DNA from: Nannochloropsis salina CCMP1776
Taxonomy: Eukaryota > Sar > Eustigmatophyceae > Eustigmatales > Monodopsidaceae
DNA length: 64,000 nucleotides
Direction of reading: 5' to 3'
Assembly: GCA_004565275.1 (NCBI GenBank)
Contig: SDOX01000010.1
Coordinates: 319,446-383,445, forward strand
Numbering within the stretch: the first letter of the stretch is position 1; each line of letters opens with the position of its first letter. Of this stretch, positions 9,410 through 63,858 are shown in pieces. The notes beneath the pieces are model-generated. The model was not told the origin of the DNA. It saw only the letters and a program-made list of their open reading frames with translations, and made no database searches. The position numbers and the translations under genes are program-made.

Positions 9410-11707
9410 ATGTCTTCCCTATGCGATTTTTACCATCGTCGTCGCCGCCGGCGGGTTACTTGGCCGTTGCTAGCGGCTGCGGCTGCAGCTTCCTCGTCCA
9501 AAGTTGTACTGGCTGCCGCTGCCACAACCACGTCTCCTCCTCTTTCATCTCTCCCATCCGCTGCCCGCCGTGGCAGTCGTCGAGTGCCGGACGCGCCAAT
9601 AAAGCCTTCGAGGACACAAGAGGAAAGAGGAAGCCATGCCCCCCAGGCCCTGGGAAGGAGGGCTTCGCGACAGGAAAGCAAGCCTTTAGGTGGTACGGAT
9701 GGTACGACACGAAGGGCTAACGATAATAATATAGACAGTACGGAAGAAAAACGGGTGCAGTCGCCGCAAGTATCGCTCCTGGACGAATACTTGCCCTTGC
9801 TCCTTGAAGACATTCAGGTCGTGGATCAAGAACTAGACCTTGAATTGCAGCAGATGTTCGAAGACTTGTACGCCTTGCCCGGCCTTCCATCCCCTCTGCG
9901 CCTCTCATCTCGAGAAGCCAAATTACAACCAAGGGGAACGGCATCTGCGTTCTCTGATGGTAAGGCGAGAAGAGGAGGCAGGGGGAAAGGGCCGGAGACC
10001 GGGGTCAGACGGGGAGGTCGGGGCCTGGGCGTGGGGCCTTCGAGCCTTGGAAATGAGGAGGAGCGGCAAGCATTGCCCCCCCTCGTCCCAGACGGTGACA
10101 TGCTAGAGGGGAAGGGGCAGCATCTGGAGGTTGGGGAGGGAGAGAGACGGCTGGAGGGTGCAAGGAGGAGGGGGGTTGCCATCTCGGCACAAGCCGTCGG
10201 GCGCGAGGAGGAAGAAGAGGAAGAGGCGGCTGCCGACGGCGGTCGAAGACGACGACCTCGGGGCAAGAAACCGACGGGAAAGAAGGCGCTCAGAGATGGG
10301 GGGGCAGGAGCAGGCCAGGGCCACGGCGGGGGAGTGAGGAAGCCAAAAAGCTCGACAACAAGGCCGACGTTTCCCTCCCGGGCTGCGACCGGCAAAGCGC
10401 TGTCATCCAAGCCCCGGGCCAAGCCGGGCCTGTCCCTCGGCCCATCCCTTGGCGCGTCTTCCCAGGGGCTCAAGGTGAAAAATGCGCGAACCAGGCAGCG
10501 ACGGCAGCTGCTTCGCCTAGACCGACCACAGCACCGGCTCGCAGGGTCCAGGGTACCGTCCCCGCCCACGGCCTGGGCCATGGCGGGCGCCTCCCTTTCC
10601 GGGCTCGGGTGGGCCTGCCTGGCCGTCCGGCAGATCCAAGGGGCGGGCCTCGCCAGCCACTACACTTACCTATTAAACCCCACGCAAGCCGTTTTCAGCC
10701 TCGTCCTTGGTCCAACCCTCCTCTTCATCCAGGCTGGGAAGGACCTTCTTTCTCCCTCGCCCTCCCAGCGCCCGCCCCTCGTCCTCCAAGTCCTCCTCCC
10801 CCTCTCCCTCCTTTTCGCTGCCACGGGCACGATCTTCTTGGCAAGGACCGGCCCCCCCGCGGTCATTGCGGTCATCCTCGCTGCCGCCTGCCTCATCCAG
10901 AACGTGCCGCATACGCAGCCACCGGTCGTGCGGCCCGTGCGGCCCGATGGGGCGAGGAGCGACCTCGACGCGGGAAAGTGGCGTCGATCCCTCCTCAGCC
11001 TGATGGCTTCGGGGGCGCTCGCCGCACTCGTGGGGGTGGGTCTGCCACTGAGCATGGCCGAGCCGGGCCGCCTCCTTCGCCTCTCGTCCCCCGTGTCTTC
11101 CTTGGGACCTGTCTGGAGCGTCCAGTTGGGGGCGTTGACGGCGGCGGTGTGGTTGAGTCAGATGGCCGTGACAACCTTCCGGGACGCCCAAGCCCGCCAG
11201 GAGGTGTGGGGGGAGGAAGAGGAGGAGGAGGAGGAGGTGGGAGGGCAGGAACGATTGACCCGCACTGGGAGGCAAGTGCGAGCGTTGGGCGCCTGCTCGG
11301 CCATGGCGCTAGTGGTGAGCGGGGTTGGACCGGGCGCGGTGCTGGGCAGCCTGCTGCACTTACTGCTCCTCTCACATCTGACGTCGGGTGAGGGGGGGCG
11401 GTCAATGGCTGGGAAAGCGTTGGCGGAGGTGCAGGGCGGGATATGGGCCGTCGTAGCCTCCGTGTTGGGCGACGTGATCGCCTTGCCGGCTTTCACGGAG
11501 GTAGGAGAGGCCGGATGGGAAGAAAAAGGCCGGGGCGCAGGGCAGGAAAGGGGGCTTACCGACGAAGAGAGGGACGGTCTGTCTACGTTGGCCGCAGCTT
11601 TGAGAGAGCAACAACAGAAGAAGCAGGAAGGGTATCTTAGGAGCCCGGATGCGGAGAGTGACGAGCAGGCGAGCGCGCTCTTTGGCCCCTCTGTTATTGA
11701 CGGTTGA
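9410..11707 (+). CDS. large hypothetical membrane protein with basic low-complexity N-terminal half
   Basis: Open frame of 765 residues from an ATG at 9410; I do not recognise the family. The start shows a short Arg run then an Ala-rich hydrophobic stretch (VTWPLLAAAAAASSSK) that could be a signal or plastid leader. Residues about 90-380 are Gly/Arg/Glu-rich low complexity. The C-terminal half has about six to eight hydrophobic segments, for example SLSGLGWACLAV, TQAVFSLVLGPTLLFI and LQVLLPLSLLFAATGTIFL, with an acidic loop. An earlier in-frame ATG at 9185 is possible; 9410 is preferred because it puts the signal-like stretch at the N-terminus. A plastid-envelope or thylakoid protein is a guess only. 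Confidence 0.6.
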   Translation: MSSLCDFYHRRRRRRVTWPLLAAAAAASSSKVVLAAAATTTSPPLSSLPSAARRGSRRVPDAPIKPSRTQEERGSHAPQALGRRASRQESKPLGGTDGTTRRANDNNIDSTEEKRVQSPQVSLLDEYLPLLLEDIQVVDQELDLELQQMFEDLYALPGLPSPLRLSSREAKLQPRGTASAFSDGKARRGGRGKGPETGVRRGGRGLGVGPSSLGNEEERQALPPLVPDGDMLEGKGQHLEVGEGERRLEGARRRGVAISAQAVGREEEEEEEAAADGGRRRRPRGKKPTGKKALRDGGAGAGQGHGGGVRKPKSSTTRPTFPSRAATGKALSSKPRAKPGLSLGPSLGASSQGLKVKNARTRQRRQLLRLDRPQHRLAGSRVPSPPTAWAMAGASLSGLGWACLAVRQIQGAGLASHYTYLLNPTQAVFSLVLGPTLLFIQAGKDLLSPSPSQRPPLVLQVLLPLSLLFAATGTIFLARTGPPAVIAVILAAACLIQNVPHTQPPVVRPVRPDGARSDLDAGKWRRSLLSLMASGALAALVGVGLPLSMAEPGRLLRLSSPVSSLGPVWSVQLGALTAAVWLSQMAVTTFRDAQARQEVWGEEEEEEEEVGGQERLTRTGRQVRALGACSAMALVVSGVGPGAVLGSLLHLLLLSHLTSGEGGRSMAGKALAEVQGGIWAVVASVLGDVIALPAFTEVGEAGWEEKGRGAGQERGLTDEERDGLSTLAAALREQQQKKQEGYLRSPDAESDEQASALFGPSVIDG

Positions 11708-12341
11708 AGGATTGCTAATGCTGCAGTCGAGGTGGATGATCAAACCGACCGGCATCCGTCATGTGGAGAAATGCCGGGGAGTCCGGTGAGGGAGTTTCGG
11801 CGTCCCGTACAGTTTTGGCATGAGAGAAGCGATCCTGTCGTGCACGCCCCTGGGACAGGGATGAAGCCAAAGAGAGGTCATCCCCATGTTATTTATTGTT
11901 GATTTTTTAGGAGACTTCATGATAGAAATGAAAGGTATGAGAGCTTTTCTCAGCCGAAATGGCACTCGAGGCGCTTTCTCATCCGGCGGCGCGTTTCATA
12001 ACTTGGTAACGACTTTAATTGCTTTCGTTTGGCAGGTTCTTTGTTATCTTTAAAGGTCCTTCCCCGGCACTTCTGTCCATTGTGGTCGAACTCTAGCGAC
12101 GACTGATTGAGCGATCAGGACTCAGAGGCTACTGCATGACTCCCGCCCACACGCATTGGCTTTTACTATGCATCATTCTGTACATTTCATCGAGTCCCCT
12201 CTGTCATGCATTCTACCAGTATCATCATGTCCAAACGACAAACATTATACCCCCACCCAGATCACTGTCCTTCCCCTGCCACCGTCATCCCAGCATCTTC
12301 CCCCCCCACCCCCACCCCCGACCATTTGATTTTAATGATTC
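11708..12341. other. convergent 3' region with a G-quadruplex-capable tract
   Basis: Two genes end toward each other here. At 12300-12319 the plus strand reads C8-A-C5-A-C5. The minus strand, sense for the MFS-like gene just upstream, therefore carries G5-T-G5-T-G8 about 25 bases past that gene's stop. Confidence 0.5.
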
Positions 12342-29324: not shown

Positions 29325-32300
29325 TTAAGGTGCCGTCTTCAGCTCCTCCAGCTTCAACTCCAAGTCCAAAATATCGTCCTCGCTGATTGTCTTTTTCTTC
29401 TTTCCATCCGTAATCAGCTTTTGGATACGCTTGATCTCCTTCTTCTTCTCCTTGTCTGACAATGTCGTTTGCTTGTTCACCTGTCGCGAGAAAAGTGCGG
29501 AGTGTGAGTGTGCTGCCTTAGTCCAAGCCGAAACACAAACGGACAGTCCCATCTGTCGCCCGATTCCCATGACGTACCTTGATCTCATTTCCCAACGCGT
29601 CGATTACCACCTTGTCACCCAGCTCCTCCTTCACCTCCTCCTCCTCGCGGGTGGCCACCGACTCCCCCTCCCGACGCAAGCGGCCCTTGTCCATGATCCA
29701 CTTCTCTTGACAGACCGCCCCCGCGAACTCTCGGTTGTGGGAGATGATGATGACGCCGCCCTTGTAATCGTGGATGGCCTGCACCAAGGCGCCGAGGGAG
29801 TCCCGGTCCAGGTAGTTGGTAGGCTCGTCCAGGACGATGATGTGCGGGTTTTGCCAGAAGCACGCGGCCATCACCACCTTGATCTTCTGCCCCCCCGAGA
29901 GGGACTTGATCAGGGTATGGGAGGCATCCTCCGGATCGATCCCAAAGTCGGCCAAGTGCTTCTCGATCGCGGACGTGGTCAGGGGCTTGAACTGGAGCCC
30001 CGCCTCCGCCGCCATCTTCTCGTCGAATTTCTGCACCATTTTCTCGGCGCCCATGGACAGGAGCACGTCTCGCTTGACCCACAGGTTGCAGTCGGTGGAC
30101 TTGCCCCGCCACTTCACCTCGTACTCCTTCGTCTTAGCCTTCTTGTCCTCGTGCCGGTTGATGATCGCCTCAGGCTCCACCGCCAGCTTCTCCTCCGCGG
30201 GGGAGTAGCACTGGCAGAGCGTCGTCCCTTCCCGGATGAAGAACTTGGTCACCTCCTTGTCCACCTCCTTCTTCTTGTTCAGGAGGTCTAGGGACTCCTT
30301 GTCCTCGTTCCCCGCGAACCGCCACATGATGTACTGGGCGGGCGTCTCGTTCAAGTGCTTCTCCAGATGGAAGAAGGCGTGCTGGGCCACGTAGGCCAGG
30401 CGCATGTTCGGATGCTTGGTAATGACACCCTCCGACGGCGTCAGCTCGCCGATCAAGAGCTTGATGGCCGTAGACTTACCCGCCCCGTTGGGCCCGATCA
30501 CGGCCACGCGGGAGACGCGAGAGACCTCCAGGCAGATGTCCATGACTGTCGGCTTGTTGCGCGTCGGGTACTGGAAAGTCACGCCCGTCATCTTGAGGAT
30601 GTGCTTCGAGAGGGACTTGACGCCTTCCAGGGGCCCGGGCTCGGGGAAGACGAAGCGGACCTTCTCGTTGGTGAGGATGAAGTAGCTTTTCTTCTCCGGG
30701 AACTTGGCCACGAAGTCGTTCAGGTTGCCCTTCATCGTCACCAGCTTCTTCTTCTGGAAGTCGATCACGTGCGTGCACATCTCCTGCAAGAACTCCGAGT
30801 CGTGGGAGGTGGTGATGATAGAGCCCCCCCCCGCCAAAAAGGACTTAAGCCAGTCTTTCAGCCAGGCAATGTTCTTCACGTCCAAGTGCCCCGTGGGTTC
30901 GTCCAGCATGAGCAGATCGGCGTTGATGAGCGTGGCCGCCACCAGCTGCATCTTCACCTTCCAGCCACCCGAGTACGTGGTCACGGGCATGTCGGCATCG
31001 GCCGCGCGGTCCTTCCCGAAGCCCATCTCCCCCATGGCGGCCGCCGCCGCCTCCGTGGTGATGGCGGGCAGCACCTTGACCACGTTGTTGCAGTAGTCCA
31101 CCACCCAGTCCGTTCCCGACAGATCTGTGTTGAAGATCGGGTATCCGGTCTCGTCCTCGCCCACCTCCCGCTCCTCGATCTCGTGCTCGACAAAGAGGGT
31201 CTTCAGCTCCGTCTTCTTGGGGAAGCCCTCGATCTGCTCGTGATCGATGGCGCGCATCAGCGTCGTCTTCCCGCAGTTGTTGGGGCCCAGCAGGCCGTAG
31301 AAACGGTTGCGTTTCAAGTGCAGCCGCGTCTTGCGCAGGAGGGTGAGGGTCCCGTAGGCCAGAGAGAACTCGCCCTTGTACAGGTCCTGCCCTTCCTCCG
31401 TGTCCTCGAAGATGATCGTGTTGGGGCTGGCCAAGATCTCGCAGTCGTTCAGGACTTTGGCGCACAGCTCCGCGTGCTTCTGGCCGTAGACGCGCTCCCA
31501 GTCCTTCTTCTCGAAATGGTAGGCGTCGCACAGGTTCTTGGTGCACTTGACGATGTGCTCGGTCGGCTCCCCGTGCTTCTTGATCATGGCCGTCACCTCC
31601 TCCACGCTCCACTTCCGCAAAACCAGCTTCTCGTCGTAGTGGTCGAGGATAGTCTTGAGCGCCCGGTTGGCCACCTCGCGGGCCTCGGGTTTGGAGATGT
31701 TCTCGGCGCAGTACTTGACCAAAGGCAGGATCTCCGGGATGGCGATGGAGAGCTCCTTGGGGTCGTCGACCAGGCGGCAGACGTTGTCGAGGATCACGCA
31801 GGACTTGCGCTGGATCTCCGTCTGCTTGTGGCGGAGGCCGCGGCGGATGATGGGCATGATCACGGCCAGGGCGGGGGCCTCCACGTCCTGCACGAAGACG
31901 CACGAGGCCAGGTCGTCGATGGCTTGCACCGTGTGGTTCGGGTCCTTCAGAGCCTGCACCAGGCCCGGGATGACCCTGTCCAAGTCCGAATTCCCGTTTG
32001 TCTGCACCAGGTGCTCCAGGCACTTGAGGGAGAGCTCGCGCACTTTCTTGGAGGTGTCTGTGCACATGTTAATGACGGGCTGGAGGATGTCGGGGAGCTT
32101 GCGGCGGACGAAGGCCGCATCCAGCTTGGTCAAGAGGGAGATGGCCGGCTCACGCTCCTTCCCGAAACCCGCGATCTTGGCGACCAGAAAGTCGATGATA
32201 TCGGGGACCAACCAGGGCTCCAAGGCTTCTACAGTGGCCATGAATTTCTCCTCGGACATCTCATTGGAACGGTCGCAGAGGCCCTGGAAGGCGGCCGCCA

Positions 32301-32352
32301 CGTCGAACGCGTCGGCACTGGCGGGGACGGTAAGGTCGACAGGCTTGACCAT
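29325..32352 (-). CDS. EEF3: translation elongation factor 3 (eEF3), ABC-F-like ATPase
   Basis: Exons 32352-29578 and 29480-29325 (donor GTACGT, phase 0) give 976 residues. Residues about 1-300 are alpha-helical HEAT-type repeats. ABC domain 1: Walker A GPNNCGKTTLM near 359, signature YSGGWKVKMQL near 463, Walker B LLMLDEPTGHLD. ABC domain 2: Walker A GPNGAGKSTAIKLLIG near 621, then an inserted chromodomain-like stretch (KTKEYEVKWRGKSTDCNLWV), signature LSGGQKIKVV near 815 and Walker B IIVLDEPTNYLD. The last exon is Lys-rich. This order (HEAT, ABC, ABC with chromodomain) is that of yeast eEF3 (about 1,044 residues). eEF3 helps release E-site tRNA and recycle ribosomes in the cytosol. It was once thought fungal only, but related genes are known in algae and oomycetes. 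Confidence 0.95.
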
Positions 32353-32554
32353 GGCGAGAGGATCACAGTAGGCAGGGAGTGGTTAAGTCTGTGTTTCATA
32401 CAAAATATTAAAAGAGGAGATGTGAGACGGGTTTAAAATCGTCTTCCCGAGTGGCTCCCTCTCATAAGAGAATCTCCGCGACGGAGGCCGCAAATTATGC
32501 ACGGCTGAATCACACATGTACGCCAGTTGATATAACTATAAAGTGTAGGGAAAG

Positions 32555-34295: not shown

Positions 34296-34937
34296 TCATC
34301 CCCACGCCTCGTCTAGGCTGTAATTAATTATCAGGGCACCACCCCTGCTGAAGCATTTCTGGAGATCTCCAAATTTATCCTCGGGCGCAGGAGCAAAGGC
34401 CGAGTTGACGAAGACGAAAAGCGCTTCGCTTTCTTTCAGCTGAAGCAAGCGACGCAGGACAGGGAACAAAGCGCGGAATGGCTCGCTTGCCTGAACGAAG
34501 AACTTGCTCTGCGTCAATCGAGGGGCGCGGCCGACAGCCATAAGTTGAAGTTTTACCCTAGCCGCATGCGCAGGTGTAGTTTGCCCAGGAGATATAGACG
34601 CTGAAGGTTGTGTCGGTTGAGCAGTAGGTGCCGAAGGGGAGGAAGCGGTGGATGCTGAAGGACGAAGAAGGTCTACCGTGCCCCCAGTGCTTGTCTCTGC
34701 GTTCATGGAGAAGTCTTCGCCTGCGGGCCCGCCAGGTCGAGATGACATGGCGGGGGTTGCCGCGGTCAATGCTGTACTTCCCGCTTGGCTTGTACGCGAG
34801 GGGATGTCGTCCTCTCTTTCAATCCTCAGTGTGGGCATGGATGGAGGCTCGTCGGAGGCCTGTGCTTGCGGCACTGACGGCGGGGAGGCTGCCGGGGCAC
34901 CTGACGATGTGGCATCCTCCTCTCTTTCCTCTTCCAT
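34296..34937 (-). CDS. ATG12: autophagy ubiquitin-like protein ATG12
   Basis: Single exon of 213 residues from the ATG at 34937; an in-frame ATG at 35036 would add 33 residues. The first ~125 residues are Ser/Pro/Ala-rich and disordered. The C-terminal ~85 residues are the ubiquitin-like fold: VKLQLMAVGRAPRLTQSKFF, then LLQLKESEALFVFVNSAFAP, then the family end CFSRGGALIINYSLDEAWG. The last residue is Gly directly before the stop, as in other ATG12 proteins, which need no proteolytic trimming. ATG7 and ATG10 attach this Gly to a Lys of ATG5, and the conjugate helps lipidate ATG8 during autophagosome growth. Head to head with LAMTOR4. Confidence 0.92.
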   Translation of the reverse strand: MEEEREEDATSSGAPAASPPSVPQAQASDEPPSMPTLRIEREDDIPSRTSQAGSTALTAATPAMSSRPGGPAGEDFSMNAETSTGGTVDLLRPSASTASSPSAPTAQPTQPSASISPGQTTPAHAARVKLQLMAVGRAPRLTQSKFFVQASEPFRALFPVLRRLLQLKESEALFVFVNSAFAPAPEDKFGDLQKCFSRGGALIINYSLDEAWG

Positions 34938-35274
34938 TTTACTGTAGTAGGCAAATAACTGATGCCGAGCAGTGTTGCTAGCAAGTTTTTCACACTGTTG
35001 TTCCTGAAAAATTTGGAAGAAAGAGCAGTAGAACATTTTGAAGGACTATGTTCCTAAAGCCTCAGTCCAGCTCAGCCGGCTTTGTTTCAAGCCGAGGTCC
35101 TTGGACACTTCTTCCGAATGTTCTCCGTTACATTTAATGCCACGTGTCTACGACGTTCAAACGTGCACTTGTGCATTCATTCGTCTTCTGATCTCTCCAC
35201 CTCGCCCTTGTCGACGTACACTCCCCCAGTCGAGTCCGACCTCCTCCCCCCACCTTACAGACCCCGTCTGGAAT
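34938..35274. promoter_or_regulatory. divergent promoter between ATG12 and LAMTOR4
   Basis: 337 bases between the two chosen ATGs. The plus-strand half ends in a pyrimidine-rich stretch and CTTACAG at 35252-35260. That could be the acceptor of a 5' UTR intron of LAMTOR4, which would move its promoter further left. Confidence 0.5.
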
Positions 35275-35568
35275 ATGCGGCCTGATTTGGAGACAGTGCC
35301 AAATCAGTTGGGCACAGCGTCACTTAGACTGGACACAGGAGCCATTCTTTCGCAAACAGGGCAAATGGATACGCCTTTGGGGTCGGAGGCTGCCCACACT
35401 CTCTATCAAATACTGCTCGACACGGGCTTAATCTTGAAAGCCCCTTTGCATCACGGGGAGGCCTTGCGTCGCATCGCGGTGCAGTTCAGGTCTTTCCAAT
35501 ACGTCATGACAGTATCGAAGGATGAGGTATTCATTGTAAAAAAGACGCCGGACGACACGCGCGGATAA
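35275..35568 (+). CDS. LAMTOR4: Ragulator complex subunit LAMTOR4
   Basis: 97 residues, the normal size. The start LETVPNQLGTASLRLDTGAILSQ is the roadblock-type beginning seen in LAMTOR4 (IPDQLG.LVL..GAVL...). The central helix ends LKAPLHHGEALRRIAVQF, and the closing strands read YVMTVSKDEVFIVKKTPDDTRG, close to the family VTVSGQRVFVVKR. LAMTOR1-5 tether Rag GTPases to the lysosome or vacuole and are needed for amino-acid activation of TORC1 in animals. A longer frame starts at 35038, but its extra N-terminus matches nothing and includes a likely intron acceptor, so the ATG at 35275 is preferred. Confidence 0.85.
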   Translation: MRPDLETVPNQLGTASLRLDTGAILSQTGQMDTPLGSEAAHTLYQILLDTGLILKAPLHHGEALRRIAVQFRSFQYVMTVSKDEVFIVKKTPDDTRG

Positions 35569-35859
35569 CAAAGTGAAAATCGGACCGTACCTCACGCGGT
35601 AGGAAAGCATGTGCCCCTGTAAGATAAGAGGCCCCTGTGCAAAACTGCACAGGTTCGACATTGCTTGTAAAATATACGCGACACGTCTCTCTATCTAGCC
35701 TTAGCGCATCCAAAAGAAATGTAAAGCAGCATCAACCTGCGCGCAACTGACGAAATCAAAGGAGGACACCTCCTGAGAGGGCATCAAGCCACACCTGCAC
35801 GTTCAGGTTGCTCAATTTCTTCGGACATCTGTTTCACTATGTACATTATTGTTGGAGTT

Positions 35860-38800
35860 TTACAAAAGTCTCCGGTCAAAATTAGCTTGGTGCGTATCGG
35901 GTAATGGCGTTGTATCATCGGCTTCCCTCCGCAAGGCCGCATCCAGTACCTCGAACAAGTGCTGTTTCTCGTACTTCCTGGTCAAAAAATCTAAACGAAA
36001 GTGTCGGATACCCATCCCTAAAAGGTCCTGCTGCCGATGCACCAACGACTGGGCGTTGGTGCTATAGACAATGGACTTACAATGCTCATGTGCCACCTCA
36101 AACTTTTCCCCTTGCTCGTTCTCGATCGACAAAGTGCGGTACCCGCACACTTTCGAGCCAGGACATTGATTTCCGTGCAATGCCGTCAAACTGCACGCTT
36201 CGGCCATGAAAAGAGGCACGTCCTTGTAGAGGATGTATTGCGGGGCGGCATGGGTCTGTCCAGAACCCGCTTGTCGACCCTCCCCCACTCCCTCATCACC
36301 GGCCGCAGGGACATCCCCGCCCACCCTTGCCATGGCCCTGGGCCATGCGCGCATGTGGGCCTCCAAATTCGCCGCGTCATCCTCGACCGAGAGGGCGATC
36401 AAGGATGCACCCAAGGACCGCGCCCACACGGCCGAGGCCTGCGAGTTGAGGGAGTACAGGGTGAAGTCCGTGGTCACGTCCACGTGGCGCCCGCTCGAAG
36501 AGGCGGGGAGGAGGCCGTATTCCTCCAAAAGACCCCAGGCGCCCAGGTTCCCCACCTCGAAACAAAGAAGGCTTCCGTCTCCCTGCCCGGCTTGCTCTTG
36601 CGCGGCCGCAAAGGCCTCCACCCACGCGCGGACAGGAGGGGCGTCCCAGGCCCGCACCACCGTCGGTAGGGCCAAGCGGACGCGCACCCGATGTCGGCGC
36701 CCGAAGGCCAACAGGCGTGCGATGCCCTCGTCCGGCTTTTTCGCGGCCAAGAACATGCGCTTGGGTTCGAAGACCACCTCTTCGACCCACGCCCGGCCTT
36801 CGCCCTCCCTTTCCCCCCAAGGGGCCAGGACTTGGTCAAGGTATTCATCGAGGAGGTCCAGGTACTCGAGCCGATCGATCTTGACGGCAAACCGCCGGTT
36901 CTCCCACCGTCCCGGGGGCAAAGGGAGCGCAGAGGGGGAGGTAGGGACGGCCAAAGCCTCCTTTTCCCCCAGACCCAACGCCCGCACTGCCCTTCCTTTC
37001 CTCTCCTCGAGGAAAGCCTCGTACGCAGGCGCCAACCTGGCCGCCACGCGGCTCTTCAGCGCCTTGAGGTCCCTCCGGGGGATGAAAGGCACCTCGAAGC
37101 CTTCTTCGCCCTCGACCCCGGCCTCCCCCAGTCCGGTCACCACCACGGTGCGCGCCCGCATCCCTAGTTCGCCATAGACGCCCAGCACCTCGCCCATGTC
37201 CCCCACCACGTCCTCCCTGCTCTTCCGCGTCGTTGATTCCCACGTGGGCCAGGCATGCGTCTCCTCCACCAGGAGATGCCCCAGCTTGCTCACCTGGACG
37301 CGCAAAGTCAACCCCCCTCGCGTGCCTTCCCCCCCCTCCTGCCCCGTCCCCTCCCTTCCTCCCTCCCTCCCTCCCTCCCTTCCTCCCTTCCTCCCCGCCC
37401 GGTCCACCTGGACATGCACGTCCACCGTCGTCCAGCTCCTTGCCTTGTAACTCTCTGGCACCACTGCCAAGGCCTGCACCCGCCGTTTCAGCCGGTTCGA
37501 GCGCGACTGAAAGACCAAATCCCCGCTTTGGATGGCGCGATGGCCGTTATGTCCTTGCTCCCACTCGCGCCGCACCTCTATCGGCACCTCCACCTCCACC
37601 GTCGCCCCCGCCATCGCCTCGAAGGCTTTGCTGCCCTGCACTTTGAACTGACGCAGGGAAAATTCCGGAAGTTCGTTCGCGTACTTCTCCTGCAGCAGGC
37701 GTTCCCGGGCGGCGTGGACGCCTCGGTCCTCAGCTCGGGCATCGCCGTGTTGGGGGGTGGTGTGAAAAGCGCGGGCAGGAGGACAGACCTTGATCCCGTC
37801 GTAACGCTCCAAATCAACCAGGGCGGAGAACTTGAAGGTCCGCCCGTCCTTGCTCACAGAGAGGACGCGGCCCGCCAAGACCCCCAAATGCCCTGCGTTG
37901 TCCAAGTCGATGACGTTTTCGTGGTACCGGCCTCGGACGAAGAAGGAGGTGGTCCGCCGGTGGAAGGAGAGGGCCAGGTCCTGTCGAAGGCCCGCGTCGG
38001 GCGTGTGCCTGGCTTGAGCAGCGGCCTGAAAGGCCTCGGGAGGGGCTTGGGATCGGAGGGTGGGGCGGGCGTAGATCTGGTCCAGGCGCCGCCGGTAAAG
38101 GGCGACCGCTGAGGCGACGTATTGGGCGTCTGTGAAAGCGAGAGGGAGTAGAGAGGAGGGAAAGGGAAAGGGGAAGCCGTGACATGCGGGCAGACGACTT
38201 GCAGCCAAGGGCGGCGGATGGACAGGGAAGCTCAGAGAGACAAGTGGGTCCACCAATGTCCGGCATGGGCCCGAGCCCCCTCACCTTTCTTCCGGCCCTC
38301 CACCTTGAGGGTGTCGATGCCCGCCTCCGCGAGCAGGTCCAAGTCGTGGCTGGTGTCCAAGTCGGCCATGGAGAACAGAAAGCCCATGCCATCCTCGCTC
38401 GTCAGCGTGTACGGCTGCCGACACGTGTAGGCGCATTCCCCGCGGTTCCCTGAGCGCGCGTCTGTCTCTCCACTGAAAAAACACAAGCCACTGTAGGAGT
38501 AACACAACGAACCGTGCACAAAAGCTTCCAACTCCGCCACTCCGGACGGCACGCCTGCTCGGATGTCTTTCATTTCCTTGGCCGTCACTTCCCGCGCAAG
38601 CACTACCCGCTGGTACCCCAATTCTGCGGCTTTGACCACGCCTTGGAGGTTGTGGACGGCCATTTGAGTGGACGCATGGATGCGCAAGGTGGGGAAGAAT
38701 TCTCTCACCAAGGCCCCGACTGCCTGGTCCTGGACGATGATGGCGTCCACCTCCAGCTCTTCCAGCGCCGAAAGAGTGTCGATGAGTGCCCCGAGCTCCT

Positions 38801-39344
38801 CTTCCTTGATGAGGACATTCACCGTGACGAGCACCTGCATGCCGAATTTGTGCGCCATGGGCACCAACTCTTTCAAGTCTTCAACACAAAAATTCTCTGC
38901 CCGTGCCCGGGCGTTGAAATTCTTCAGCCCCAGGAAAACCTGATCGGCGCCTGCATTCAAAGCTGCTAGAAACTGCTCCCGTCCGCCCGCCGGTGCCAAC
39001 ACTTGAGGGACAGGATGGTCAGGCACCGAGCGAGTGGTTGGGAGAGGTGGTTGACGGTCTGTGACAGCCTTCCCAGATAAGGCTGTCGTACCGGCTAACA
39101 AGCCAAGACGGGTAGAATGGCGTCTCTCAGAAAGAGGACGCAAGAAGGCGTGCTTGGTCCTGGCATGAATGATCCTTAAATTGCACTGTAGCAGAAGCAG
39201 TAATACGGCACAGAGACGGAAGAGGGTCGAGAAGCTCGATGGTGCTCTTGTCGCCGTAGGGCCTTGTCCACGTCCCGGCCATGGCAACATCCTGTACACC
39301 GACAAGAAAGCGAAAATGTACAGGATTTTGAGAAGGCTTGGCAT
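35860..39344 (-). CDS. peptidase U32-family protein (RlhA/YegQ-like), probably plastid-targeted
   Basis: Exons 39344-38285 and 38129-35860 (donor GTGAGG, acceptor TTTCACAG) give 1,109 residues. Residues 1-95 have an ER-signal-like hydrophobic stretch (LCAVLLLLLQCNL) followed by a basic part with AF (KHAFLRPLSER), which suits bipartite targeting to a secondary plastid. The U32 core begins VPQVLAPAGGREQFLAALNAG and has HASTQMAVHNLQG. The cysteine-bearing signature HGSLCYSYSGLCFFSGE with NRGECAYTCRQPYTL lies near residue 281. The core ends DTLKVEGRKK. The long C-terminal part fits the collagenase-like extension of large U32 proteins. In bacteria, members such as RlhA hydroxylate a 23S rRNA cytidine and others act in tRNA or ubiquinone hydroxylation; a plastid RNA-modifying role is inferred. 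A GGRE repeat interrupts residues ~610-635. Confidence 0.82.
37350..37395. repeat. CCCT/CCTT microsatellite inside the U32 coding region
   Basis: The plus strand reads repeated CCCTCCCT units. The coding (minus) strand is GGGA-rich and encodes the Gly-Gly-Arg-Glu repeat of the U32-family protein. The frame is kept. Confidence 0.85.
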
Positions 39345-39542
39345 TCTCTGCTCACGCTTAAGGCTTGTTGGCTTCACGAAATGGAACAGTTGGGTAGGGC
39401 GGCGACTTGAAGTCTGCCGGCGGACGGATCGGAACTAGGAGACCGAAGACTGGGTGAAAAGGCGCACATCGTGAGCTCAACATAACATGCTCCTTTCTCA
39501 CATTTTTTTTACGTGATAGGTATCTGTTGAAGATCTTAAGCG
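39345..39542. promoter_or_regulatory. short divergent promoter between the U32 gene and TIP41
   Basis: 198 bases between the two ATGs, so both promoters and leaders must be compact or shared. A T-rich run lies at about 39503-39511. Confidence 0.45.
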
Positions 39543-40867
39543 ATGCCAGGTGCTACTGTTGCAGAGGAAGCCGTCCTACGGGTGAGAATGTCCTCTTTCT
39601 GACCTCCTCATGGCGTTGTTCCTCGCATTTTCCCTCTTGATACTTTTCGCGACCTTATATTAACAAACCCTGCACTCTTGGACAGCGTAACGGAGCCAGT
39701 GTCAAGAAAAGTGAAGATAGTACAAGGATTGACCTAGGTGGGTGGCAAGTATGCTCGCGGGCACGGCCCATCCTGAGTGACCAAGAGAGGGAGGCGCTCA
39801 CACAGCGCATTGCGCACTTTTGGAGCGCACATTGCACGGACGCTGCTTCCATGATGATGGCGAGCCATGACACCAGTAATTACTCGGAAGTTGGCGCTGG
39901 CTGTCCCAGCACGACTGGTCAGAGCACTAGAAGTGGCATCGGTGAAGAAGGGGCCTTTGCCTCGGGCGACCACCCAGCTGGTCTGAGCAACGCAGGCCAT
40001 AATTTCATTCCACTCCCCGAAATTCTGTTTGGAAAAAGCTTTCTGGAGCTCAGACATTCTGCTATCCCAGGCAGGAGTGAGGAGGAAGTGCTTTGGGACT
40101 CGAAGGAGGAAGTGAGGAGCGGTGCCCTCCCAGCGACAACTGATTTCTGGCTCCGGTTTAACACCACGGGCGCTCTCATTTCATGGGCTGAGCGCCACGT
40201 GGACACAAATGAGAAAGGAAAGGTAGAAGTGATACGAGTGCCTGAAGCAAGTAGATGGGCGGCGGGTCATCTAGGGGCGGGTTTGCGGCAGGTCCGGTAC
40301 GACTGGGTGTTCGGGACCGACTACGAGGGAGAGCTTCTGAAGAGGGTTAGTGGGGGAAATCAGCGAGATAAGGTGGAGGCGGATCCTTGCGACACCCTAT
40401 TGGACGTGGAGGAGAGAAAGGAGCGGAGCGCAGGGCTGGAGTGGGAGGTGGCCGACGCAAGCGTCATTGACCGCTCGTTGCTGCAATGCCGGGACCAGCC
40501 GATTCTGTTCTACGACGATGTCACCTTGTACGAAGACGAACTGCACGACCACGGCGTTGTCTCGCTCAACGTCAAGGTACGCGTCATGCCCACGTGCTGG
40601 TTTGTGCTTCTGCGTTACTTTCTTCGCGTGGACGGAGTGCTCCTCCGGATCCGAGATACTAGGTATTTCCATCGCATGGGCCATGAGTGGATTGGCAAGG
40701 AAAGTAGACGGAAAGAAGTCACATTCGCACAACTTGCCGAGGAAGGATTGTCGACGAGGACATCTGAATACCGAGATGTCAATGCAGTGGTCGGTATGAT
40801 CGATTCAATCGGCCCTCCCGCCGATGTATGCTACACGCGCTTGGTCCTCCACGGTGCGCCATCATGA
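39543..40867 (+). CDS. TIP41: TIP41/TIPRL-like TOR-signalling protein
   Basis: Exons 39543-39581 (13 codons) and 39686-40867 (donor GTGAGA, phase 0) give 406 residues. Matches to TIP41/TIPRL: IDLGGWQVCSRARPIL at the start, IPLPEILFGKSFLELRH, YDWVFGTDYEGELL, and the strongest block YEDELHDHGVVSLNVKVRVM continuing FVLLRYFLRVDGVLLRIRDT near residues 293-330. The protein is longer than the human form (272) because of polar insertions near residues 60-95 and 230-260. In yeast TIP41 binds TAP42 and opposes TOR signalling; in animals TIPRL binds PP2A-family catalytic subunits. Cytosolic role by homology. The tiny first exon is inferred from phase and a clean donor. Confidence 0.92.
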
Positions 40868-41298: not shown

Positions 41299-43017
41299 AT
41301 GATTATGCGGAAAGCATCGACGACTGCAATACGGCTTGCTGCGCCGGTAAGCTCGGGTACGCCTGCGACTTTTTTCCGGCCGCGCTTTGCCCGTGCTTTA
41401 ACGCCTCCGTCATATTTGTCCGCCTGCTCTTTCACACGGGTAAGTCCGCTTTTGGTGCCCGTCCTGTCGTGATCGGGTCTAAAGCGTCGATACGTGAAGA
41501 TATTTCATATCTTATTGGCTGTTTGAATCTTGATTATCTCATTTTCTGATCCTTGTCGTCATGCCTGACATATTCAATCCCCTGCCCTCTCCCAGCAGCA
41601 GCGCGCCTTGTGTTCCCCTCCGTCTTCCTCTTCTTCCGTCCCACATACTGCGCCCTCATTATCATCGAGCATTCACGACCATCACGGTCCTCACTCCAGC
41701 ACGAATGGAAACTCCTCAACAGCCATCTCCCTTGCCGGTGCCGTCGCTGCTATCCTGACTCTGACCGCCCTTACTCCCTCCCGTCAAGACGCTGGCACTT
41801 TTGATGCCCGGCCGCCTGCGCGTCCCCAACGGGTAAAGTACTCTTTGTCCACATATTCGGGCAACGAATTCATCGAGGACCGGCACGAAATTCGGGAGAT
41901 CGTGGGCGGGGACATCTTTTGCGGCGTCTTTGATGGGCATGGGGGATGGCAGGTGGCCGAGTATGCCTCCGTGCACCTGAGCAAGAACCTGGAGATCGAG
42001 TTGGCGAACATGGGCCACCGCACCGAGTCGGAGCAGGTGATTAAAGCCTTGGTTCGAGCTTTCGAACGGACAGACCGGGGCGTCATCCACAAGGTGCACC
42101 ACGCCTTCGAAATTGGCTTGGGCCATGTCGCCAAGGTCGGTGCCTGCGCGCTGGCGGTGCTGATCAAGGGCCACCACCTGTACGTGGCCAACGCGGGGGA
42201 CTGCAGGGCTGTGATTGGGAAGCGGTCGCCCCCGCCCAAGGAGAAAGCGGCTGGTGGAAAGCGGGGAAAGAAAGCGGTGCCAGGCCTGGACCCAGGCGCG
42301 TCCCCTGTCAGCGGGACTGGGCGAGGCGGAGACTACTACGCCGTGGCTCTCAGCGAGGACCACAACGCCAAACTCCCCAAGGAAGCTTCGGCATTGGCAC
42401 AAGCGCACCCCGGGGAGCCCGACATTGTCAAGTGCAAGCACGCCAACGCGTGCTACGTGAAAGGCCGGCTGCAGCCCACCAGGGCTTTGGGGGACGCTTA
42501 CCTGAAGTACTCGGAATTCAACGGTCGGCCCAACCGCTCAGACTCGAGCGCAGGCCGGTATATTCCCCCGCCCTACACGCCGCCTTACATCACAGCGACG
42601 CCGGAGGTGCGTGTATACGAAGACATTTTGGACGACCCAAGTGCGGAGTTTGTCATCCTTGCCTCGGATGGCGTCTGGGACCTGTGCTCGAACGAGGAGG
42701 CCGTGCGTTTCGTGGGACAAGCCATCGCGGACGGGGACTCCATGCACGTAAGCCAGCGCTTGATCGCGCACGCCCTTCAGTGTCGCGCCAAGGACTTGGG
42801 GATGACGGTGGAGGAACTCAGGGCCCTGCCACCGGGGAGATCGCGCCGGTCCAAGCACGACGATATGACTGCCCTGGTCGTCATGCTACAGGGTGGGGCG
42901 GCGGGGGTGGAGCCGGAATGCGCGGCAGCCAATCCACAGGACGGCAAGGTAGACACCAGCATCGATCCGACCATACCACCGGAAGAGTGGGGAGAGGGGG
43001 GAACCGCGATGGGGTAA
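41299..43017 (+). CDS. PP2C-type protein phosphatase, pyruvate dehydrogenase phosphatase-like
   Basis: Exons 41299-41439 and 41596-43017 (donor GTAAGT, acceptor CTCCCAG, phase 0) give 520 residues. The N-terminus MIMRKASTTAIRLAAP is Arg/Ser/Ala-rich like a mitochondrial presequence. PP2C metal-binding motifs are present: EDRHEI, FDGHGGWQ near residue 158, ANAGDCRAVIG, LSEDHNAKLPKEA, ASDGVWDLCSNEEA near 404 and DDMTALVV near the end. The stretch GRLQPTRALGDAYLKYSEF with PPYTPPYITATPEVRVYE is the pattern of PDP-type phosphatases, which reactivate mitochondrial pyruvate dehydrogenase by dephosphorylating its E1 alpha subunit. PP2C membership is firm; the PDP link is likely but not certain, since plant-type PP2Cs can share part of it. 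Confidence 0.88.
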
Positions 43018-53303: not shown

Positions 53304-54069
53304 ATGCGCATTGAAAAGGAATACACTTGGTGTGTACACGTGCAAACGGCTGTCTTTTTGGGCAGAGAGAGTAGATGCTCATTACTTTATGGTCTTCTGG
53401 GTCCAGCAAAGGGGCAACTTCTCTGTGCCCCTAGCTTTTTCCTCTTTTCATCATCTACATTAACTGTGAAGATAGCTCTAGAAATCGACCCAACGCCGCA
53501 AGCTGTGTAAACATCCTGTCAACGTAGAAGAGCAAGACTTCATGGAAAATACTTTAATAGTAGAGAGCATGCCGGCCGATCTCTGGCCGGGGCTTGTGAG
53601 ATTACGGTAGGAGTCGCCTATTAATCAATCTCCTGTCCTTGGCTATCGCACGAATAAGGCGATTGCAACCTGTTGTGTCTTCTCTTTTCATACTATATTG
53701 AATGACAACCATATAAACAAGGATCAAGCTTGAAACGAACAAAGCTGGCTTGCTATTGCCGGGCACAGACCTCCTGGGTCGATGCATGGAAGGACATGCA
53801 TGGGCCGCGAATTTTTTTTTCCATACGTCACGTATGAGAACTGCTAGTCTGCTGGAGCTGCAATTTCGGAAGCACCCGCTATGACAAGGGGCGTTTGATT
53901 AACTTCGGGACTATCAGTAGAGTAGTTTCTTGGTCATTAGTGGGTTTTACAAACAATTGCTTTTAGTGGAAGCAAATACGAGATTTTAAGCGTTGGCGGT
54001 TAAGTTTCGGCCCATGTTGCTGTCAAAGATTTAAGTTGAACCCCATTTCTCCAAAACGCAAATTGAAAA
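53304..54069. other. intergenic region, one short candidate ORF
   Basis: About 770 bases. On the minus strand, 53787-53602 encodes 61 residues with a hydrophobic span (LFVSSLILVYMVVIQYS) and a basic end. It has no family match, so it is not called as a gene. Confidence 0.4.
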
Positions 54070-55542
54070 ATGGTCCCACCCATCATTCTACAGGGAAATA
54101 AAAGCTGCATAGTACTCCACGCTGATGGTGGGAAAGAGATCATGTCTTCTCCTTCTTTAAGCTGCTCCAGAAAGATTCCATCCTGCACAGGTGTCGGCAT
54201 ACACCCCACGCTCCCCTCTATACGTGGTCGGATCACCGCCTTGAAGACCCGCCAGCCACGCGTCATGCCTCCAGAGACATTATTCCCGATGGGATGCCAT
54301 CACACAGGGTCGATGCACCGAAGTTTTGCTCGTGCACCTTTAAATGCGGCGGGTGAAATGTGTGACGCCAGCGACCGCCCACTCCTCTGCTTGAGCTTAT
54401 CAAAAGATGAAGAGGAATTGGTGGTAGGTAGTGCGGACCATGCCCTGTATGCATATAATCTCAAGACATGCAAGCCTACGCGTAAGCTGTACTCTAAGGC
54501 TCATGGGCACATCGATTGGGTCACCTGCGTGGTGCATATGGACAATGGCCAAGTGCTGTCCGGCGGGGGTGACGGGAAAATATGCGTGTGGCCTCCTTCT
54601 CGCTTGTCGCCTTCATCTTTTCCGCTGAAACATAACGAGCGCGGCGCCTATAAGCGACCTGCTATCCCAAATAGGCTCACCCATTGTCAGGATTTGGACG
54701 GACACGCGAGTTCAGTCAGTAAAATATTGCCAGTGCCGGACTCGGACATGGCTTTCTCCGGGAGTTATGACGGCTTGATCAAGTTGTGGAATCTAACCTC
54801 CAAGCAAGCCTTAACATTCGATGCGGAAGGTAGGTCTGCTAAAAGCAATTGCAGCTTTGGTAAAAATGAGGTCGCCAGTGACCACAGCCTGAGTAGATGT
54901 GGGACCTTGGATTCCGTTCTCGACTTTGCCTTTGACACTGAACAGAAGCAGCTGATGAGCGGCACGCGGAAGGGAAATTGTAAGGTATGGGATTTGCATA
55001 CAGCCAAGCAAATTGGGACTGTGAGAGCTGCCCACCGCGGTCCTGTAACGTGTCTGACCCGGTGGTCGGCCTCGATAATGGTCACGGGGGGACAGGACGG
55101 CGTGGTCAAGGTCTGGGATACACGGCGGGGGATGCCTCTGGTCACACAAGCTGTCTACTGCCACGTCAATCCTGTGCAAGGCACTGCAAGCGCAGTGTCG
55201 TGCTTGGAAAAGACGGGTGGTCTGTTGGCGACGGGCGGGGCAGACAAGCGTGTGTGCCTTTTGGATCCTCGGAGAAATTTTCAGACCCTTCATGTCTTTG
55301 ATCATCATCAGGCTCCAATTTATACCTTAAGATACGCACTTTCGGCGGAAAGCCCCGTTCTATTCAGCGGCGCAGGCGACGGGACCGTCCACTGTGTGAA
55401 TTTGCTTTCGAATGCTGTGCTCTACGGTCTGCATCCGACAAGGGGGCCTGTCCGGGCTCTGGCCACTACAACCCACCTGCAGGCAGACAAGAAGCTCGTG
55501 GCGGCCGGGGAGGACGGTAAGGTCGTGATATTTAGATTCTAA
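54070..55542 (+). CDS. WD40-repeat protein
   Basis: Single exon of 490 residues. The first ~95 residues are not repeat-like. From there about seven WD40 blades follow, visible as LLCLSLSKDEEELVVGSADH, GHIDWVTCVVHMDNGQVLSG with KICVWPP, SKILPVPDSDMAFSGSYDGL with IKLWNL, QLMSGTRKGNCKVWDLHT, HRGPVTCLTRWSASIMVTGG with VVKVWDTR, GLLATGGADKRVCLLDPR, and the closing LVAAGEDGKVVIFRF. WD40 propellers act as protein-binding platforms in many pathways. The first 64 residues may be non-coding if a later ATG (54262 or 54313) is used. No specific family can be named from the sequence. Confidence 0.75.
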   Translation: MVPPIILQGNKSCIVLHADGGKEIMSSPSLSCSRKIPSCTGVGIHPTLPSIRGRITALKTRQPRVMPPETLFPMGCHHTGSMHRSFARAPLNAAGEMCDASDRPLLCLSLSKDEEELVVGSADHALYAYNLKTCKPTRKLYSKAHGHIDWVTCVVHMDNGQVLSGGGDGKICVWPPSRLSPSSFPLKHNERGAYKRPAIPNRLTHCQDLDGHASSVSKILPVPDSDMAFSGSYDGLIKLWNLTSKQALTFDAEGRSAKSNCSFGKNEVASDHSLSRCGTLDSVLDFAFDTEQKQLMSGTRKGNCKVWDLHTAKQIGTVRAAHRGPVTCLTRWSASIMVTGGQDGVVKVWDTRRGMPLVTQAVYCHVNPVQGTASAVSCLEKTGGLLATGGADKRVCLLDPRRNFQTLHVFDHHQAPIYTLRYALSAESPVLFSGAGDGTVHCVNLLSNAVLYGLHPTRGPVRALATTTHLQADKKLVAAGEDGKVVIFRF

Positions 55543-61823: not shown

Positions 61824-63374
61824 TTACGCGACGGACGCGACGCTGGAGGGACCCCCCTCCGGCTCTTCCTGTGATGGCTTCTCGTCTTTTTCCTCCTCCG
61901 CCGCCGCTTCCGTGTCTCTCTCCATTTCTTCCCAACATATTCTTCCCAGCGTGGGATGAGCCTCCTCCCCTGCCCCCTCGGCCTGCGACCGCTCGTTCGA
62001 CACGCCATGACCCCGTTTTTTGGGGTCCACACCACGCCGGTCGTCACCCTCCGCCCTCTTTGAGCCCCCCTCCTCGGCCCGCGTCAACGAATCCTGCTCT
62101 CCTTTCCCATCGCCTGCTCTTTCTGCTCCTGTCCCCAACCCGTCGGCCTCTTCGGCTTCGATCACCGCGGCGTAACGCTGTGTGTAGCGTCGCAAGATGA
62201 AGATCAGCACCATCAAGAGCGCGAGGCCTACCACCAACAAGCCCAATTCTTGTGCAAATATTCCATGCCTCTTCATCGCTGCGCCCCCACCATTGAGGGC
62301 CTCCAGGAGATTTTTGGTAGATTCTCCCAAATTCACCCAAATCAACGTGAAAGGGATCGAGGCTACGAACGTGCAAAGGAAGAACACGTGTGTGGGGCAG
62401 GGCAAGAAGGCCATGCCGTAATTTTTTATGGAAATGGGAATGGGCAGAAAGCGGAGCAGGAAGGTTATTTTCCAAGGGTGGTACTCCATGGCAATAAACA
62501 TGGCCCGGATCGTGCGCTTCCTCTTGGACATAGGTTTGGACGGCCTGGCTGCCGCAGGGAGCCTTGAGTGTCTCAGGCTCGGGGCATCGCCTCCCTCCTG
62601 GTCGTTGTTCTCCACCACGCTCTCGTTAGGCTCTTTCCCTCGTGCGGGAGAGTGTGAGGAATGACCCAGGGCATCCCGCAGGGTCGGAGATGCGAAGACC
62701 TTGGCGAGGAGAAATGCCAGCATGCATCCCAATTGCTTGCCGACAGTCAAGGTGAGGAGGGCCACAGGGTAGGAGAAGATGGCCCCCCCCAAGAGCTCGA
62801 TGATGGTGGAAGGCAGACAGAGAATGATCCACAAGGCAGTGATCAAAGCGTAGTAGACGGCAGATTGGGGGGCGTGCGCGCGAATCCACTCGGATCCCTC
62901 CAAGACTTCGTCACGATACCGCACGCACAAGTAGCTGCCCGCGACCGCGCATATCAACACAACAGAGAGCACTAACAGCATAGATCGCAGCCTTCTCAGC
63001 GTCTTGTATGCCCGTCTACAAAATCCTTGCCTGGATGATGGGAGCGCTGTTGGACCGACGCTCTGATTACCCTCCTTTTCACCCGCGCCACTCACTGTGT
63101 CATTCATTTGGAGGCACACATGCCGGGGTGACCGATCATCATAAAAATTATCAATTTTTCTTTCATTTTCCTGGGTGATAATTTCAACATTCTCACGCGT
63201 TGGCAAATTCAGGGAGGGGGGTCTAATTGCGGCTGCAGATGCCATCATTTCGATCATGTCTTCCGTGAATCCGATGCTCGACTCATCACGGGATGTCAGA
63301 GACTGCGGTGATGGAGCTGATGGTAATGGTGAATTGAGCAGTTCTCCTGCTGATAAACAACTTGGCGTCCCCAT
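61824..63374 (-). CDS. VTT-domain (TVP38/TMEM64, DedA-like) membrane protein
   Basis: Single exon of 516 residues from the first ATG at 63374. The first ~135 residues are polar. A membrane span MLLVLSVVLICAVAGSYLCV is followed by the VTT core: ALITALWIILCLPSTIIELLGG, then AIFSYPVALLTLTVGKQLGC. A polar insert (about residues 235-285) precedes FLLRFLPIPISIKNYGMAFL, the hallmark F-R-x-x-P-x-x-x-x-N-Y motif, and IPFTLIWVNLGESTKNLLEA. One more membrane span and a long acidic tail close the protein. Relatives (yeast Tvp38, human TMEM64, TMEM41B and VMP1) act in Golgi or ER membranes; some are lipid scramblases. The polar insert inside the core is unusual for the family. Confidence 0.85.
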   Translation of the reverse strand: MGTPSCLSAGELLNSPLPSAPSPQSLTSRDESSIGFTEDMIEMMASAAAIRPPSLNLPTRENVEIITQENERKIDNFYDDRSPRHVCLQMNDTVSGAGEKEGNQSVGPTALPSSRQGFCRRAYKTLRRLRSMLLVLSVVLICAVAGSYLCVRYRDEVLEGSEWIRAHAPQSAVYYALITALWIILCLPSTIIELLGGAIFSYPVALLTLTVGKQLGCMLAFLLAKVFASPTLRDALGHSSHSPARGKEPNESVVENNDQEGGDAPSLRHSRLPAAARPSKPMSKRKRTIRAMFIAMEYHPWKITFLLRFLPIPISIKNYGMAFLPCPTHVFFLCTFVASIPFTLIWVNLGESTKNLLEALNGGGAAMKRHGIFAQELGLLVVGLALLMVLIFILRRYTQRYAAVIEAEEADGLGTGAERAGDGKGEQDSLTRAEEGGSKRAEGDDRRGVDPKKRGHGVSNERSQAEGAGEEAHPTLGRICWEEMERDTEAAAEEEKDEKPSQEEPEGGPSSVASVA

Positions 63375-63858
63375 TTTCCTGTGGCGCGGGTGTATATTGG
63401 AGCACGTGAGCCGATAATGGGATCGAGGCCCTATCAGTCTCGCGCATGGGCGAGGAATGGGCACCGGGGAAAAAATGACAGAGAAAACAAATACATGATT
63501 CCTGTATGCACATCACGATACGTAAATAGCCATGTTGAGCTGTGTGCTGTCTGTGTTAGGACATCGCGAGCACAGGTAAGCGCATCCACCGAATGTCAAG
63601 TGTGCATCTCGGATGCGTCGCGTTGTATCGTTTCAACGGTCGACAAGAAACGGTTTGCGTGCCACGGGGGCGGGGGAAATGACCCTCCCGCCCATCCGTC
63701 TGTCCGGTAAGCAGGGACTCAGAAAAACAAGGGCACATTCGTATAATATTTGTTTGTTTTCTTTATGTTTGCGGTTGCGTGTGTCGTTGTGTTTACGCAC
63801 ACTGCGTGCACTGGTTGGGATTCAGCAACCTCCTCACCCCTTTCGTCTTGAGGCCGCC
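63375..63858. other. intergenic region, nothing recognised
   Basis: 484 bases between the VTT-domain gene start and the end of the TerC-like gene on the same strand. It should contain the promoter of the VTT-domain gene. Confidence 0.4.

Follow-up and report, generated by a model that had tools for sequence, protein, structure and literature searches.

The window analysed here, a 64-kb stretch of contig C2 of the Nannochloropsis salina genome (26.5 Mb in 103 contigs), carries the genes for ATG12, LAMTOR4 and TIP41, three proteins of the TOR-autophagy axis, all inside 6.6 kb (34296–40867). All three are real genes, and their proximity, first noted in a prediction made from the sequence alone (the original prediction), was correctly observed. 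However, the three-gene TOR-autophagy cluster which that prediction proposed is unsupported, because TIP41 faces a gene of the U32 family, other genes of the axis are scattered through the genome, and the coincidence is within expectation. In our view the region is probably unremarkable for a compact nuclear genome: two divergent gene pairs adjoin here, TIP41 is nearby by chance, and ATG12 and LAMTOR4 may share promoter DNA.

Layout of the locus

The genes and gaps of the locus are the following, in window coordinates.

34296..34937, minus strand: ATG12, 213 amino acids (Pfam APG12, PDB ATG12 chains, Trp-Gly end)
34938..35274, no strand: 337-bp gap from the likely start codon of ATG12 to that of LAMTOR4, GC 48%, candidate shared promoter region (from start coordinates)
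35275..35568, plus strand: LAMTOR4, a Ragulator subunit, 97 amino acids, single exon (phmmer against PDB, codon score)
35860..39344, minus strand: U32-family gene, probably with two or more exons (frames 38232–39434 and 35860–38280; exact splice sites not fixed)
39345..39542, no strand: gap between the U32 start and the inferred TIP41 start, 198 bp, or 506 bp with the TIP41 start at 39851 (from start coordinates)
39543..39581, plus strand: inferred first exon of TIP41 (13 codons), with a GT-AG intron of 104 nt after it (in-frame join only)
39686..40867, plus strand: TIP41-like protein, main exon (Pfam TIP41, PDB TIP41-like chains)

Two divergent pairs adjoin, ATG12/LAMTOR4 and U32/TIP41, and LAMTOR4 stands tail to tail with the U32-family gene. 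Since TIP41 is head to head with the U32-family gene, the layout gives no hint of a single regulatory unit. The original prediction had placed TIP41 correctly as the next plus-strand gene past the U32-family gene, but left the head-to-head arrangement of these two unmentioned. Its description of ATG12 and LAMTOR4 as head to head over about 340 bases agrees with the 337 bp between the likely starts.

Identity of ATG12, LAMTOR4 and TIP41

ATG12 is a ubiquitin-like modifier that is joined to ATG5 with the aid of ATG7 and ATG10. The Pfam APG12 profile matches the window's ATG12 over its full length (positions 1–87 of 87, E = 6.8e-23) at residues 127–213, the last of which is the end of the protein. 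The top PDB chains are the ATG12 proteins 1wz3 and 4gdk (E = 1.5e-15 and 2.2e-15, respectively), with an alignment that reaches the terminal AWG, and a search of the genome itself returned this gene as the single match. The frame terminates in DEAWG followed by the stop, such that the C-terminal glycine is exposed and needs no processing. While the protein resembles 1wz3 and 4gdk in its ubiquitin-like domain and terminal Trp-Gly, it differs from them in a low-complexity N-terminal part of about 126 residues ahead of the domain. The likely start is at 34937; the frame is open further, with an alternative in-frame ATG at 35036, and the N-terminal extension has an ambiguous codon score (+2.8). 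On this scale the whole ATG12 frame scores −4.7, which counts against it, and its ubiquitin-like part +5.5.

LAMTOR4 pairs with LAMTOR5 in Ragulator, which anchors RagA/RagC heterodimers. A phmmer search of PDB chains with the small plus-strand frame returned nine distinct LAMTOR4 sequences (E from 1.7e-4 to 1.4e-3), of which the best match spans residues 4–90 of 97; the tenth and last match listed is unrelated (E = 0.38). The frame thus aligns across nearly its whole length with Ragulator LAMTOR4 (PDB 5x6u and others), but the relationship is distant (25 bits). The likely start is at 35275, and the frame is open further to an alternative in-frame ATG at 35137; the codon score is +13.1 for the gene and −7.6, i.e., non-coding, for the N-terminal extension. 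It is very unlikely that the LAMTOR4 call is wrong and that this frame encodes another roadblock-type protein or is no gene. Such a miscall would fit the lack of a Pfam match (the existence of a Pfam LAMTOR4 model being unchecked) and the poor single-sequence structure model, whose mean pLDDT of 58.7 is too low for fold comparison. However, the only significant PDB matches are LAMTOR4 chains, the frame scores as coding, and both Rag types as well as a LAMTOR5 match are present in the genome.

TIP41 regulates PP2A-type phosphatases. The main exon matches Pfam TIP41 at 4.8e-42 and TIP41-like PDB chains from 4.2e-26, and the gene is again the single match in the genome. It has the TIP41 domain in common with PDB 5w0w and 5d9g, but is longer than these (407 residues when the inferred exon 1 is counted, versus 246–251) and carries additional sequence between the aligned segments. 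In the main frame, the first in-frame ATG lies at 39851, and the inferred exon 1 would move the start to 39543; the start position is therefore uncertain. With Pfam values of 6.8e-23 and 4.8e-42 and LAMTOR4 chains matched at 1.7e-4, the three names given in the original prediction hold.

The gap between ATG12 and LAMTOR4

The promoters of the two genes would both lie in the 337-bp gap, which makes a weak co-regulation of ATG12 and LAMTOR4 plausible, as in any close divergent pair. In Nannochloropsis oceanica, according to the parts of the source consulted, bidirectional promoters between divergent genes have been documented and used, and co-expressed divergent pairs exist (PMC5785352), which makes a shared ATG12/LAMTOR4 promoter plausible. 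The Ribi and VCP2 pairs described there are alike in having opposite-direction genes with a promoter region between them; however, co-expression or promoter use was reported for those pairs, whereas ATG12/LAMTOR4 is known here from layout alone. Taken together, the pair may share promoter DNA.

To place the gap among others, divergent gaps were sampled in 20 stretches of 10 kb each, using codon-scored blocks at thresholds of 10, 12 and 15. The distances are rough in both directions: they come out too long because blocks end before start codons, and may come out too short if a low threshold lets in false blocks. At threshold 12, 19 divergent neighbours were found, of which 2 were at most 350 bp apart, 4 at most 500 bp and 11 at most 1000 bp. 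The corresponding counts were 5, 6 and 13 among 21 neighbours at threshold 10, and 1, 2 and 8 among 16 at threshold 15. Divergent neighbours less than 1 kb apart are common in this genome.

The gap contains one CACGTG core (35141), which was considered as a CLEAR/E-box-like signal and was rejected because 26 of the 27 copies in the window fall outside the gap. These 27 copies compare with 12.7 expected from dinucleotide shuffles, where the maximum of 100 shuffles was 20.

A stronger proposal is that a functional bidirectional promoter serves ATG12 and LAMTOR4 only, with nutrient signals setting the two genes together and TIP41 incidental. The head-to-head arrangement over so short a distance and the N. 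oceanica precedent speak for it, but we regard it as unlikely: no specific motif was recognised in the 337-bp gap, CACGTG being common in the window; in random order, a pre-named 60-gene set yields at least one divergent pair of adjacent genes with a probability of about 8% (0.08, with a one-in-four divergent share assumed); and LAMTOR5, the partner whose dose would most need matching, lies on another contig (C70). Less likely still is a more specific version for this algal lineage: a nutrient-responsive promoter in the gap, truly bidirectional, would tie the dosage of an autophagy conjugation factor (ATG12) to that of a Ragulator subunit that activates TORC1 (LAMTOR4).

Other genes of the TOR-autophagy axis

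Ten family searches of the genome for members of the axis located eight further genes, and 8/8 lie off contig C2; the nearest two, which share C56, are separated by about 47.6 kb. Their locations and supporting matches are as follows.

C56, 271 kb (L005): RagC-like GTPase, PDB match 1.1e-82
C57, 1024 kb (L003): RagA-like GTPase, first exon, PDB match 1.4e-50
C19, 502 kb: TOR, FRB domain
C52, 49 kb: TAP42, family search
C70, 1326 kb (L014:1468–1697): LAMTOR5, Pfam 5.1e-9 in the genome search, one stop read through
C70, 380 kb: Raptor, family search
C13, 38 kb: ATG3 (assigned), Autophagy_act_C
C56, 223 kb: ATG10 candidate, Autophagy_act_C, name inferred

Exon 1 of LAMTOR5 alone matches Pfam at 1e-9; its phmmer matches in PDB are weak, the top one (0.2) being an unrelated chain and those to LAMTOR5 following at 0.24–0.72. 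All three PDB matches of the ATG10 candidate are ATG3, the best at 0.0012. Two marginal matches were left uncounted, one from the Rag search on C14 (23.2 bits versus a cut-off of 22) and one from the FRB search on C69 (26 residues, 24.8 bits versus a cut-off of 24.7), and both are off C2. The Robl_LC7 search gave three genome matches, all below the family cut-off. The family searches for LAMTOR1, ATG5 and ATG8 gave no genome match; because they matched in none of 14 control genomes either, absence of these genes is not shown.

With a RagA-like and a RagC-like GTPase in its gene complement besides LAMTOR4 and LAMTOR5, the genome appears, from sequence matches, to retain the Rag-Ragulator system at least in part.

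Chance expectation

Random gene order was simulated for 10,000 genes, with assumed gene set sizes and pathway numbers. The gene total follows from 77–90 codon-scored blocks in 200 kb sampled, i.e., about 10,200–11,900 genome-wide, a rough count in that the same method at threshold 12 missed ATG12 in the window. The original prediction named no gene set beforehand; the post hoc odds apply, and the triple is within expectation once the choice of pathway is free. With 60-gene pathways, the probability of one or more triples (three members among four consecutive genes) was 0.22 for 50 pathways, 0.45 for 100 and 0.67 for 200; with pathways of 40 genes, the values were 0.26 for 100 pathways and 0.34 for 200 (200 repeats each). 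The original prediction had itself allowed for chance in a gene-dense genome.

We find a selected three-gene TOR-autophagy cluster with common chromatin or regulation very improbable. In its favour, a pre-specified triple has a low probability of 0.15–1.5% (40–80 genes among 10,000); the simulated probabilities that a pre-named set yields one or more such triples are 0.0015 (40 genes), 0.006 (60), 0.015 (80) and 0.048 (120). However, the three genes are interrupted by the U32-family gene, whose start faces that of TIP41; the eight further axis genes that were located are scattered over other contigs; and post hoc chance is ample. On the reading that we favour, ATG12, LAMTOR4 and TIP41 would each act in trans, as their families suggest, regardless of gene position, and the proximity of TIP41 to the other two would be chance.

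Several observations count against the view of an ordinary stretch with two adjoining divergent pairs. First, the triple is improbable if the gene set is fixed beforehand (0.15% for 40 genes, 0.6% for 60 genes). Second, at 337 bp the ATG12/LAMTOR4 gap is shorter than most of the divergent gaps sampled, though not exceptional among them. Third, the scatter covers the eight located genes only, as LAMTOR1, ATG5, ATG8 and Robl_LC7 members were not placed by the searches. With these points included, we still hold two divergent pairs side by side, with TIP41 close by chance, to be the probable explanation.

Neighbouring genes

The order of genes around the locus is elongation-factor-3-like (EF3-like) ABC protein (−), ATG12 (−), LAMTOR4 (+), U32-family gene (−), TIP41 (+) and PP2C phosphatase (+). 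The two outer genes are the following.

Frame 29518–32382, minus strand: elongation-factor-3-like ABC protein (EF3-type HEAT repeats and a chromodomain)
Frame 41569–43017, plus strand: PP2C phosphatase (Pfam and open reading frame survey of the window)

Within the U32-family gene, whose first in-frame ATG is at 39344, Pfam Peptidase_U32 matches the first frame (38232–39434) at 2.8e-52 but the second (35860–38280) only at 0.1. The best NCBIfam model for the first frame is TrhP, a tRNA hydroxylase (1.9e-48), at 165 bits versus a cut-off of 534. The first exon opens with hydrophobic stretches. Our guess is that the product is an organelle-targeted tRNA hydroxylase.

Elsewhere in the window, LST8 was considered for the WD40 gene at 54067–55539 and rejected, as 0/6 PDB matches at 1e-20 named LST8. 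A VTT-domain protein is encoded at 61827–63512 on the minus strand (Pfam 1.1e-15), with no PDB match up to E = 1. The VTT-domain family includes the autophagy factors VMP1 and TMEM41B.

Relation to published work and significance

Scans of prokaryote and virus collections (TIP41 in both, ATG12 in the viral one) returned no relative, a result which is uninformative for algae. No paper was found that treats ATG12, LAMTOR4 and TIP41 together, or Ragulator, LAMTOR4 and algae together, and the portions consulted of papers on TOR or autophagy in Nannochloropsis give no order of the ATG12, LAMTOR4 and TIP41 genes. For N. oceanica, the sections consulted of one study report ATG8 lipidation in nitrogen starvation, together with up-regulated ATG genes (PMC11449223). 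If the ATG12/LAMTOR4 promoter were truly shared, it would connect TORC1 activation and autophagy genetically in a simple way.

A 2022 review states, in the parts consulted, that RAGs occur in stramenopiles and that Ragulator is irregularly present in some microalgae; Nannochloropsis is not mentioned in its main text (PMC9664231). A 2017 survey, likewise consulted in part, has Nannochloropsis gaditana among its species (PMC5745459), and for that reason the Rag finding may already be published. We suggest that a more durable point than the gene cluster is that Rag GTPases, together with LAMTOR4 and LAMTOR5, appear to have been kept in this genome.

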